From: Leptotrichia buccalis C-1013-b
Lineage (GTDB): Bacteria; Fusobacteriota; Fusobacteriia; Fusobacteriales; Leptotrichiaceae
Assembly (NCBI RefSeq): GCF_000023905.1
Contig: NC_013192.1
Span: 1,364,001-1,428,000 of the forward strand
Reading direction: 5' to 3'
DNA: 64,000 bases
Notes under the pieces: model-generated
Told to the model about the DNA's origin: nothing
The model's database searches: none
The model's input: only the letters and a program-made list of their open reading frames with translations
Shown here: positions 9,689 through 47,805 of the stretch, in pieces
How positions within the stretch are numbered: position 1 is the first letter of the stretch
Layout of the letters: every line of letters starts with the position of its first letter
Translations under genes and position numbers: made by a program

Positions 9689-11641
9689 TTATTGTTCACA
9701 ACTGTCTGTGTATTTATAAATTTTATTTTTATCTTTTATTATATCTTCACCATCTATAGTAAATGCAGCAAAACTTTCAACGTCTGCACCTTTAACTTCC
9801 TTAGTTCCACAATATACTTTATTTTTATCTTTTGCATAACCTGCCATATATTGTACAAATGATGGAATATCAGCATTTTCAACTTTAGATAAAATATTAT
9901 TTGGAGTTAATTTAGCTAATCCATTAAAATAATAAACTCCATTTTTATCTTGAAAATAACCAGTATAATTTGAATTAATTAATTCATAAAAACCGTTATT
10001 AGAATATTTAAAGGTCTTGCTGTCAAAGTTTAAAGGCATTATTTCATATTTTTCATTTCCAATTTTCCCTTTCAAATAATAAACATTATTTTTATCTTTT
10101 ATGAAAGAAACAAAATCTTCATGATTTTTAAATACAAATTTGTTTCCAACAAACTCCAATCCATCTGGACTTACACCGTTTATTTTATTTCCATAATAAT
10201 AAACATTGTTTTTGTCTTTTGAAAATTCATCATTCAAAACCTTAAAACTGTTTCTATCTGCATCCGCTATTTTTTTCAAGCCCATTTTATACAATTCATT
10301 TTCGTAATACACATTATTTTTATCATGGAAATAATTTTCCCAGTAATCAAATATTTCAAAAGTTTTAGAATCTACTTTAGGATTTTTTACTGCAACTACT
10401 TTTACACTTTTCAGTTTATCAGTTTTTTCATCATATACTGTAACAAGTTTATATATATTTTTACTATCACTCAAAAAATTAAGTGGTATATTTCGTCTAT
10501 TAACAAGCCTTACAACTTTAAAGCCATTTGGGCTTATATCATTTAGTTTTCTTCCTCTATAATAAACATTTTTTTTATCATATGAAAAATCTTCATCTTC
10601 TACAATAGTAAAACTATTTTTATCTACATCTTGTAATTGGATAACATCCATTCTTGTATAATAAATATTATTTTTATCTTTAGAATAATTGCTATCTTTC
10701 ATTACTTCAAAAGTATCTTTATCAGCGTTTTTTATTATAAGATACCCAGTTTCTTTGTATGGTGTTATGGCATATATGTTTTCATTATCTTTTCCATAAA
10801 TAATCGTACTTGAATTACTTGAATTATTTTTTATTATTTCAAATTCTTCAGGATTTTTTATACCTAATTTTTCTCCAGAATAAAATATTTCATTTCCATT
10901 TTTAACCAAATCATTATCCAAAACTTTAAAATCTTTTTCATTTATTTTCCCAAGATTTTTAACATCTCCAAAGTAATAATACAGGTTATTCTTATCTCTG
11001 GCGTAATTTGTTCCAGAAACTTCCTTAAAAGTTTGGGGATCTGCACCTTTTACAATGTCTAATCCAGCATACACATTTTTATCATCTTTGGAATATGATC
11101 CGTCTGAAATCACCTTAAATGTTTTTGGATTCGCACCTTCAATTTTTTCTCCTGAATAATAGACTGCATTTTTGTCTTTTGCATAACTACGGTCTCCTTC
11201 CAGAACCACAAACGAATTTACATCTGCATTTAAAATTTTATCTGAATCATAGAATACATTTTTATCATCTTTTGAATAATATTGACTCAAAACTTTTATT
11301 GTTTTGGGATTTGCCCCGTTTATTTTCCGAATCCATTCGTTAATTGGACTGTAAACATTATTTTTATCTTTTGAATAATTGTTTGGTAGCACTTCAAAAG
11401 TTTTAATGTCCACATCTTCAAATGATTTATTTCCCAGAAAATAAACGCTTTTATTATCTTTTGCATATTTATCATTCAATATTTTAAATGTATTCAAATC
11501 CACATTTTCAACTTTAAATCCTGTTTCATCTTCTTTAGAAAATTTATAATAAATTTCATTATCCTTTTTCACATATTCTGCCATTCCTAAATTAGCTAAA
11601 ATAAACACCCCTAATAAAACTTTAAAAAATTTTCTTTTCAT
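9689..11641 (-). CDS. Secreted DKNYY-repeat protein 1
   Basis: Signal peptide (MKRKFFKVLLGVFILANLG) followed by some fifteen repeats of about 40 residues built around YSKDKNNVYY-type cores alternating with ADxxTFxVL segments, the hallmark of the DKNYY family (known only as repeats of unknown function). The repeats run to the end, with two C-terminal cysteines in this copy. The chosen ATG lies 6 nt after GGAGGA; an in-frame ATG at 11680 would put the signal sequence internal. It is the first of three tandem paralogues and is probably periplasmic or surface exposed. Confidence 0.88.
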   Translation of the reverse strand: MKRKFFKVLLGVFILANLGMAEYVKKDNEIYYKFSKEDETGFKVENVDLNTFKILNDKYAKDNKSVYFLGNKSFEDVDIKTFEVLPNNYSKDKNNVYSPINEWIRKINGANPKTIKVLSQYYSKDDKNVFYDSDKILNADVNSFVVLEGDRSYAKDKNAVYYSGEKIEGANPKTFKVISDGSYSKDDKNVYAGLDIVKGADPQTFKEVSGTNYARDKNNLYYYFGDVKNLGKINEKDFKVLDNDLVKNGNEIFYSGEKLGIKNPEEFEIIKNNSSNSSTIIYGKDNENIYAITPYKETGYLIIKNADKDTFEVMKDSNYSKDKNNIYYTRMDVIQLQDVDKNSFTIVEDEDFSYDKKNVYYRGRKLNDISPNGFKVVRLVNRRNIPLNFLSDSKNIYKLVTVYDEKTDKLKSVKVVAVKNPKVDSKTFEIFDYWENYFHDKNNVYYENELYKMGLKKIADADRNSFKVLNDEFSKDKNNVYYYGNKINGVSPDGLEFVGNKFVFKNHEDFVSFIKDKNNVYYLKGKIGNEKYEIMPLNFDSKTFKYSNNGFYELINSNYTGYFQDKNGVYYFNGLAKLTPNNILSKVENADIPSFVQYMAGYAKDKNKVYCGTKEVKGADVESFAAFTIDGEDIIKDKNKIYKYTDSCEQ

Positions 11642-45814: not shown

Positions 45815-45846
45815 ATTTTAAATAAAAAATGAAGAAGGAAATTAAA

Positions 45847-46617
45847 ATGAAGACAGAAATTATATGTGTTGGAACAGAATTATTAGTTGGAGATATTGTA
45901 AATACGAACGCACAGTATATTTCAGCAAAGCTCACAAATATTGGAATTGATTTGTATTATCAGACTACGGTTGGAGATAATTACGGACGGCTTATGGAGT
46001 GTCTGAAAAATGCTTTTAAAAGAGTGGATTTGGTGATTACTACTGGGGGACTTGGGCCTACAGTTGATGATATTACAAAAGAAGTTGTGGCTGATTATTT
46101 TGGGGAAGAGCTGGAAATGATTGAGCGGTATTATGATTTGATTGTGAAAAAATATAATGCGAGAGGCTTTGGGGAAGTGGCTTCTGGTGGAAAAAAGGAA
46201 GCATCTATTTTAAAAAATTCAAAATTACTGGAAAATGAAGTTGGGCTTGCACCAGGATTTTTTTATGAAAAGGATAATAAAAAAATAATAGTATTGCCAG
46301 GACCTCCAAGAGAAATGACGTGGATGGTGGATAATCAAGTTTTACCATTTTTAAAGCAATATTCAAATGATATTTTGCTAATGAAAACTCTTGAAATAAA
46401 AGGAGTTCCAGAAGGGAAAATTGACGATAGACTAAAAGATTATTTTGAAATGTCTAATCCAACTGTTGCTCCTTATGCAAAGGAAGGCTGTGTTCACGTA
46501 AGAATTGCAATGAAAGGCGATAGAGGGAGTACAGATTATCTGATTGCTGAAATTGATAAAATTGCGAGTGAAATTATTGAAATTTATCCGCAAGCAGTGG
46601 AAATTAAGGAAGATTAG
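45847..46617 (+). CDS. CinA N-domain (MoaB/Mog-like) protein without the amidase half
   Basis: About 256 residues from ATG 45847, which follows AAGGA by 7 nt (an ATG at 45829 has no site). Visible are IICVGTELLVGDIVNTNAQY, TTGGLGPTVDDITKE and IIVLPGPPREMTWM, typical of the CinA N-terminal COG1058 domain (ADP-ribose pyrophosphatase type in some bacteria). Full CinA proteins have about 410 residues with a C-terminal nicotinamide-nucleotide amidase; here translation stops cleanly after KED and no remnant of the amidase follows. It is 33 bp from the FtsZ-like gene, probably in an operon. Confidence 0.87.
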   Translation: MKTEIICVGTELLVGDIVNTNAQYISAKLTNIGIDLYYQTTVGDNYGRLMECLKNAFKRVDLVITTGGLGPTVDDITKEVVADYFGEELEMIERYYDLIVKKYNARGFGEVASGGKKEASILKNSKLLENEVGLAPGFFYEKDNKKIIVLPGPPREMTWMVDNQVLPFLKQYSNDILLMKTLEIKGVPEGKIDDRLKDYFEMSNPTVAPYAKEGCVHVRIAMKGDRGSTDYLIAEIDKIASEIIEIYPQAVEIKED

Positions 46618-46650
46618 TTACAAAAATTTAAAAAATAAAGGAGAAAAAAT

Positions 46651-47457
46651 ATGGATAATGCTGTAATAAAAGTCGTCGGTATTGGTACAGCGGGAAATGA
46701 GGTTTTGAATAAAATTGCCCACAGAAAAATTTCAGGGGTTGAGATTGCGAGAATTGATACAAATCAGGAAAATTTCAATAAAGAAGTTGAAGTTGTATTA
46801 CAAAATTCAGATTTAGTGTTTATTTTGATGGAAATGTCGGAAAAGAAGAATAACGAGATTACCGGTATTGTTGCACAAACTGCAAAAACGAAGGGAATAT
46901 TGACAATAACTGTAGCTGTTACATCAGTTAATTCAAATGGAGAAACTGAAGAAATTGAAAAATTGAAAGAAGTTTCTGACACAGTTATAGTTTTACCACT
47001 TAAAAAATTAGCTGAAGCAGATCCTAGTACAACTTTTGACAAAATATTTGAGAAAAGAGATGAAAGTTTTATAAAAAATGTAGAGTTTATTGCAAATGTG
47101 ATAAATAAACAAGGGGTAGTAAATCTTGATCTTGATGATGTAAAAAAAATGTTAAAAGATTCCAAAACTGCTGTAACGGTATTTGGTAAAGGTGAGGGGC
47201 AGGATAGGATAAAACTTATTTTAGAACAACTATCAAATTATCCTTTTTCGAAAAATCTTTCTAAAAAAGCTAGAAAAATAATGATAAATATTGTGGGTGG
47301 AGCGGATATTGGATTGCAGGAAATACAGGAAATAGTTCAGAAAACATTTCAAAAATTCGGAAGTGATAAAACAGGTGTATTATGGGGATATAATATGAAT
47401 CCTGAAGTTGAAGAAGAAATTGAAGTGGGCATATTAATGACAGACTTCTCTGATTAA
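46651..47457 (+). CDS. FtsZ-derived protein lacking the GTP-binding signature
   Basis: 268 residues aligning by eye with FtsZ throughout: IKVVGIGTAGNEVLNKI (T1 loop), GVEIARIDTNQENF, ILTITVAVT, VIVLPLKKLAE, VVNLDLDDVKKMLKD (T7 loop, keeping NxDxxD), GKGEGQDRI, INIVGGADIGLQEIQEI and a final EIEVGILMTDF. The tubulin/FtsZ signature GGGTGTG is absent: MEMSEKKNNEI stands in its place, and roughly 40 residues around T2-T4 are missing. The C-terminal tail that binds FtsA is also missing. It probably does not bind GTP as FtsZ does. A divergent scaffold or FtsZ-filament regulator is inference. It has a clear AAAGGAG site. Confidence 0.8.
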   Translation: MDNAVIKVVGIGTAGNEVLNKIAHRKISGVEIARIDTNQENFNKEVEVVLQNSDLVFILMEMSEKKNNEITGIVAQTAKTKGILTITVAVTSVNSNGETEEIEKLKEVSDTVIVLPLKKLAEADPSTTFDKIFEKRDESFIKNVEFIANVINKQGVVNLDLDDVKKMLKDSKTAVTVFGKGEGQDRIKLILEQLSNYPFSKNLSKKARKIMINIVGGADIGLQEIQEIVQKTFQKFGSDKTGVLWGYNMNPEVEEEIEVGILMTDFSD

Positions 47458-47471
47458 GATAATCTAAAAGG

Positions 47472-47621
47472 GTCCCAAATACAATAAAAGAATTAAAGTC
47501 GGAAACTGAAATAGTTTATACAAAAAGATTTGAAAAAATAAACAAGGAAATTTAAAAATTTCAAAAGAAAATTAAACAGTTAAAAACTGAAAAAAGAGGA
47601 AGAAAATTATTATTATTATAA
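47472..47621 (+). pseudogene. Possible decayed coding fragment
   Basis: A Lys/Glu-rich frame (PNTIKELKSETEIVYTKRFE, then one internal stop, then KFQKKIKQLKTEKRGRKLL) fills the gap between the FtsZ-like gene and MITE copy 2. It looks like the coiled remains of a gene but has no start or recognisable family; low-complexity AT-rich DNA could mimic this. Confidence 0.25.
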
Positions 47622-47777
47622 TAGGGCGTGTCTAAAAACTCTCAAAATCATGAATCTTTAACAAATCTTTTCAGAATCAGAAATATATAAATACTGATTT
47701 TATCGTGATTTGTACAATTTATGAAATCAAAAAAACATTAAAAATAACATAGATTCTGAGCTTTCAGACACAGCCTA
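47622..47777. mobile_element. MITE copy 2 (about 152 bp)
   Basis: Flanked by TA, with inverted ends GGGCGTGTCTAAAAACTC and, read inward from the right, GGCTGTGTCTGAAAGCTC. Over its whole length it matches the reverse complement of copy 1 (for example the shared block CTGATTTTATCGTGATTTGT). The two copies face each other around the 43.08-47.46 kb genes. Confidence 0.85.
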
Positions 47778-47805
47778 TTAAAAAAATTCTATTCTTCTGA
47801 ATTAA

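Follow-up and report, generated by a model that had tools for sequence, protein, structure and literature searches.

Several FtsZ homologues are known that have departed from the canonical cell division protein. The FtsZ of the archaeon Nitrosopumilus maritimus, Nmar_1262, has lost the GTP motif and does not polymerise; its T7 loop is also absent, and it is described as that archaeon's FtsZ with a probable loss of function (PMC3684127). FtsZl-1 and FtsZl-2 are FtsZ-like side families that were found through their GGGTG(S/T)G loop, and in the same paper FtsZ paralogues without functional motifs were noted, especially in archaea (PMC2875224). Tubulin_2 (PF13809) is a domain of divergent FtsZ-like proteins (PMC9871819). 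In FtsZ itself, subunits touch through H10, S9, H8 and T7 of the upper subunit and the H6-H7 loop, T5, T3 and H1/H2 of the lower one, and MciZ belongs to a class of proteins that block one FtsZ face (PMC8936486).

Here we describe a further FtsZ-derived protein, hereafter D, encoded in a 64,000-nucleotide stretch of Leptotrichia buccalis C-1013-b DNA (the window), whose genome is a single contig of 2.47 Mb. It resembles Nmar_1262 in being an FtsZ homologue that lacks the GTP motif, but T7 is retained and the genome has a normal FtsZ as well. Like FtsZl-1 and FtsZl-2 it forms an FtsZ-like side family, but the GGGTG(S/T)G loop is absent, which bears out the suggestion of an earlier note on this DNA that its lineage is separate from theirs. 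Tubulin_2, which we take to be a mark of these two families, did not match the window D at E<=1 and gave a D orthologue 15.3 bits against a cut-off of 27. MciZ, a capping inhibitor, attaches to the T7 face of FtsZ at its bottom surface (PMC8936486); D, an FtsZ relative itself, would instead attach to the GTP face on the other side. What is new relative to the known cases is that the D family keeps T7 and its surface, coexists with normal FtsZ and belongs to a graded series of paralogues. An open-access literature search found no paper on these Leptotrichia paralogues.

The earlier note had placed an FtsZ-derived reading frame at 46651-47457, which is correct (Table 1), and had read it as FtsZ-like from the first strand to the end of the C-terminal domain. 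Profile, PDB and structural comparisons agree. D is homologous to FtsZ along its full length (NCBIfam TIGR00065, E 6e-34), with a score below the equivalog cut-off (117.9 vs 295.2 bits); it passes the cut-off of Pfam FtsZ_C (PF12327; 44 vs 27 bits) and does not reach that of the Pfam Tubulin GTPase domain (PF00091; 13.3 vs 33 bits), and FtsZ structures match it at 1e-23 in a PDB sequence search. An AlphaFold2 model has the FtsZ fold with a pLDDT of 89, although its input alignment included FtsZ rows and the model is not independent; it was superposed on 8h1o with VIA-align (Z 33.9, rmsd 1.9 over 266 residues).

Table 1. Coordinates of D, its parts and neighbours, and of related genes (plain numbers, window positions; L numbers, other loci)
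Feature	Position	Strand	Remarks
D-type FtsZ-derived putative pseudo-GTPase gene	46651..47457	+	268 aa, ATG start, intact ORF; D type in relatives 281-284 aa
Shine-Dalgarno AAAGGAG of D	46637..46643	+	7 nt 5' of ATG; read from sequence
Former T4 loop of D	46828..46863	+	FtsZ AGMGGGTGTGAS replaced by D MEMSEKKNNEIT
T7 loop of D, NLDLDD	47122..47139	+	residues 158-163
FtsZ_C domain (PF12327) of D	47170..47448	+	score above curated cut-off
H10 of D, part of kept bottom contact surface	47299-47358	+	inside FtsZ_C
S9 of D, part of kept bottom contact surface	47374-47397	+	inside FtsZ_C
CinA N-terminal/KH protein gene	45829..46617	+	ends 33 bp upstream of D
Dispersed short repeat, MITE-like	47621..47785	.	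imperfect terminal inverted repeats; 163 bp downstream of D
B type	L034:2783-3727; orthologues L052, L066, L079 and others		302-322 aa; GTP box close to GG[AS]TGSG
C type			311-325 aa; box degraded, e.g. EMGEKTGT
E type	L038:2122-2829, L042:1670-2377, L046:2208-2894, L048:7121-7828, L053:2417-3124, L056:2329-3036, L067:1982-2689, L071:2251-2958, L080:2780-3487		228-235 aa; most reduced
ToxN-family gene between C and D	L036:4301-4840; also L051, L058, L061, L072

The canonical ftsZ of the same genome (L033, C1:216300) encodes 377 aa and exceeds the Tubulin cut-off. Aligned to this protein, D shows 30% identity and 42 gap positions, in line with the roughly 40 residues said in the earlier note to be missing; the loss of the GTP signature and the retention of T7, both claimed there, are likewise seen. 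The tubulin signature GGGTGTG is replaced by SEKKNNE at T4, loop T3 is deleted, T5 is partly deleted, T1, T2, T5 and T6 are altered (the T6 Asn is Leu in D), and on the GTP side N25, D46 and Q48, besides T3 and T5, are changed or deleted. The NxDxxD of the T7 synergy loop is kept as NLDLDD; N158, D160 and D163 correspond to N208, D210 and D213 of Staphylococcus aureus FtsZ, the roles of which have been described (PMC8936486). D terminates right after S10, its residue 268 aligning with residue 310 of the genome's own FtsZ, and the conserved C-terminal tail for FtsA/ZipA-type partners is missing, as the earlier note had held for the FtsA-binding tail; the own FtsZ ends in FVLPPFFEE. Thus D shares with FtsZ (TIGR00065) the fold, the FtsZ_C domain, the T7 loop and the H8/H10/S9 contact surface, but differs in lacking the tubulin signature, T3 and the tail. 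Judged by its sequence, it is an FtsZ-derived protein without the signature of a nucleotide pocket.

Identity to the own FtsZ was then calculated per contact surface, the elements being set by alignment and model secondary structure with boundaries of our own choosing. The window D is 26% identical in the top surface, 55% in the bottom surface and 30% elsewhere, and across the D proteins these values are 26-30%, 52-66% and 30-39%. True FtsZs of related genera (L078, L083, L084) give 84-89%, 68% and 79-81%, and a divergent true FtsZ (L082) gives 67, 48 and 44%. With residues treated as independent, bottom exceeds top in D at a Fisher P of 0.003 (window) and 1e-4 (consensus of the others), and bottom exceeds other at P 0.011 and 0.004, respectively. 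Since the bottom identity of D comes close to that of true FtsZs and the top identity does not, the alignment indicates that the bottom (T7) surface is preserved nearly to the degree seen between functional FtsZs and that the top (GTP) surface is abandoned. The orthologue at L040 has lost the first T7 aspartate (NLVFDD).

The family was read in all 13 genomes of the genus, and the phylum survey covered 98 genomes. Orthologues of D with 60-64% identity occur in 9 of the 12 other Leptotrichia genomes, so that D is intact in 10 of 13; it is absent in G004 and G006 and a fragment in G010. Neither D nor C types were seen outside the genus among the 98 phylum genomes; of the conservation across Leptotrichia and Fusobacterium that the earlier note had raised, the Leptotrichia half therefore stands and the Fusobacterium half does not. 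A scan of a genome contig collection with the window protein gave no match, and one with the D alignment gave two Leptotrichia records, both D1 (the D of the ancestral site); orthologues are present in L. hongkongensis and Leptotrichia sp. oral taxon 879. No relative was found in viral contigs. D had no match at 0.01 in PHROGs, phage families searched for TubZ/PhuZ tubulins, a result that does not exclude a relationship, and among the plasmid matches listed there were only FtsZ-like ones of about 25-29% identity.

Four non-canonical FtsZ types, B, C, D and E, occur in the 13 genomes (Table 1). Pfam Tubulin scores are graded, from 164 bits for FtsZ through 90 for B, 77 for C and 23.5 for a C-like protein of the window genome to 13-17 for D. 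The B type of the window genome (C1:1282046) has a near-normal GTP box and exceeds the Tubulin cut-off. This type is a tail-less second FtsZ present throughout the 13 genomes of the genus and in G022, from the same family; some further genera of the order likewise have a short second FtsZ (L085, L087, L088). The tree groups D with C and the own C-like protein in a single clade (support 100/99) adjoining the Leptotrichiaceae FtsZ (95/88 for the join), and the E type is a separate long branch of unsure placement. By this tree, D and its sister paralogue C are derived from Leptotrichia FtsZ, and the C+D clade is Leptotrichia-specific.

The ancestral D locus, found in most relatives, comprises msr/ccdA-like genes, C, variable cargo, D, variable cargo, a cytidylyltransferase gene and two more genes read from their sequences as tsaE and tsaB. 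In five genomes, C and D have a gene for a ToxN-family toxin (type III toxin-antitoxin) between them; in G003 (L044:3865-8072), the C-D gap contains several small genes and one for a P-type ATPase in place of ToxN. The gap looks like an insertion hotspot. At the ancestral place in the window genome are a divergent C-like pseudo-FtsZ of 274 aa (L035:4498-5322) and a decayed D copy, interrupted by stop codons and a frameshift (L035 about 10700-11223; L035:10888-11223), and the window D is a second copy sited after cinA; in G012 (L075) D has also moved away from the ancestral place. The window D is about equally far from all other Ds, its own decayed sister included (pS 0.36-0.45), against a mean pS of 0.12 among the others and values of 0.12-0.18 between the decayed copy and them. 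The D1 value of 0.12 is far below that of FtsZ (0.46), which could indicate recent horizontal transfer of D1 or low divergence of the whole locus; since the neighbouring msr is also low (0.17), the low value may be a locus feature. The CinA N-domain gene reported in the earlier note does adjoin D on the same strand, but the arrangement, read there as a probable operon, has no functional weight: cinA is present in 13 of 13 genomes, D stands beside it only in the window genome, and the other 12 carry cinA without D behind it. On synteny across the genus, we reject a co-function with CinA. The MITE-like repeat downstream of D has close to 30 long copies genome-wide, with 79-91% identity.

Between the window D and its relatives, omega is 0.40-0.44 (95% interval 0.28-0.64), significantly below 1; among the relatives' Ds it is 0.44. 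FtsZ has an omega of 0.08, B one of 0.13 and C one of 0.20, so that the D value is about five times that of FtsZ. The reading frame has stayed intact through substantial divergence (pS 0.38, pN 0.20). By these rates, D is constrained, if loosely, by purifying selection. That it might be a decaying duplicate of the species' own ftsZ, an outcome the earlier note had allowed for, is contradicted by the intact frame, by the purifying selection (omega about 0.4) and by the genus-wide orthologues.

We tentatively favour, at somewhat less than an even chance, the reading of D as a genus-specific pseudo-GTPase with one face left, by which it docks on the GTP side of FtsZ. D probably acts on FtsZ or FtsZ binders and not by forming filaments of its own. 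T7, H8, H10 and S9, the elements of its bottom surface, would contact the GTP face of FtsZ, or that of paralogue C. With no other contact surface left, D could act as an upper subunit on FtsZ-GTP and could not receive one, and hence would be able to dock yet unable to build filaments. A docked D would cover the surface by which GTP-FtsZ monomers join filaments; by engaging monomers, or the slow top end of a filament, it would lower or time FtsZ assembly, and its T7 aspartates, supplied to FtsZ, might trigger GTP hydrolysis in trans. As the C-terminal tail is missing, D would not be tethered to the membrane through FtsA. The earlier note had proposed that the protein could cap filaments at one end or act as a regulator. 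Capping of the growing end is unlikely: growth is tentatively assigned to the T7-exposed (bottom) filament end, a T7-only subunit would bind the top face, and D resembles top-interface mutants, which are reported to be non-toxic, unlike bottom-interface mutants (PMC8936486), so that strong capping there is not expected. Against docking, the lack of toxicity of such mutants means that a partner broken in its top face may bind FtsZ only weakly, and docking through T7 does not explain the conserved T4 replacement. The L040 sequence implies that catalysis in trans is not needed everywhere. D is also dispensable, given its absence or fragmentation in three genomes and the decay of the ancestral-site copy in the window genome.

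That D is instead an ordinary paralogue under relaxed constraint, heading for loss and without a specific role related to FtsZ, seems distinctly unlikely; its high omega relative to FtsZ, its patchy loss and the decayed D1 are what such a protein would show, but the frame remains open at the divergence given above with omega significantly below 1, the bottom surface is preferentially kept, the T4 replacement is near-invariant and the gene persists in 10 of 13 genomes. The T4 replacement itself has been considered as a sign that D binds nucleotide or another ligand through the altered loop and polymerises. Residues 57-70 (FILMEMSEKKNNEI) are exactly the former signature loop, and 13 of their 14 positions are identical among all ten D proteins, making EMSEKKNNEI the best-conserved block of the family (permutation P 0.015). 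Synonymous divergence of the segment is also low (pS 0.24), its codons being nearly unchanged; local recombination, as distinct from constraint, may contribute to the near-invariance, which weakens the block as proof of a new active site. With T3, T5 and the T6 asparagine gone too, ligand binding of this kind is highly improbable. Quite improbable as well is that D is specialised to complete the site of C and not that of FtsZ. The two are sister paralogues co-located in eight genomes, and C, in which the top face is better kept, scores above the Pfam Tubulin cut-off (77 vs 33 bits) and has a T7 almost unchanged from FtsZ (15/16), but GGGTGTG is lost in C too (EMGEKTGTF), D occurs without C in G012, and C occurs without intact D in G004 and G010.

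The rival with the most appeal, though in itself unlikely, makes D an FtsZ decoy or immune sensor, which would absorb FtsZ inhibitors, or set off a defence module next to it by pairing with them, and so spare FtsZ in phage attack. SulA, an FtsZ inhibitor, binds the bottom face of FtsZ. The same surface, which D has kept, is bound by MciZ (PMC8936486), and there is a precedent in Gp0.4 of phage T7, whose complex with FtsZ switches on the defence protein CapRel (PMC13423816). The ToxN gene between C and D and the E cassette lean towards the same explanation, with no direct bearing on the window copy: in all nine loci read, the E gene lies directly 3' of a WYL regulator and is adjoined by varying PD-(D/E)XK or Mrr-like nuclease genes. 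The E protein has a predicted FtsZ fold and no GTP box, the upstream regulator being of the HTH-WYL kind. The E sequences of several species and of a second genus are close to identical, and a search of phage records with the E type gave no match. The E loci suggest a cassette that is mobile and possibly defence-related. Weighing against a decoy, the window D has no defence neighbour, the C-D loci L040 and L064 lack ToxN, and no credible defence-family (PADLOC) match was obtained for D, the best (6e-4, to a Cas10-like model) being likely due to chance. We know of no FtsZ inhibitor of Leptotrichia phages. The wider proposal that Leptotrichia has repeatedly derived from FtsZ decoys with a dead GTPase (C, D and the mobile E), which show the T7 face to phage or other inhibitors and report to adjacent toxin or nuclease modules, is decidedly doubtful.

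FtsZ subunits normally need both faces, and D is a natural protein with the T7 face only that is under selection. It would therefore be a ready-made tool for asking whether a one-faced subunit regulates FtsZ, at which filament end it does so, and whether T7 alone triggers GTP hydrolysis in trans. If the decoy explanation were true, these bacteria would guard FtsZ with a copy of itself.
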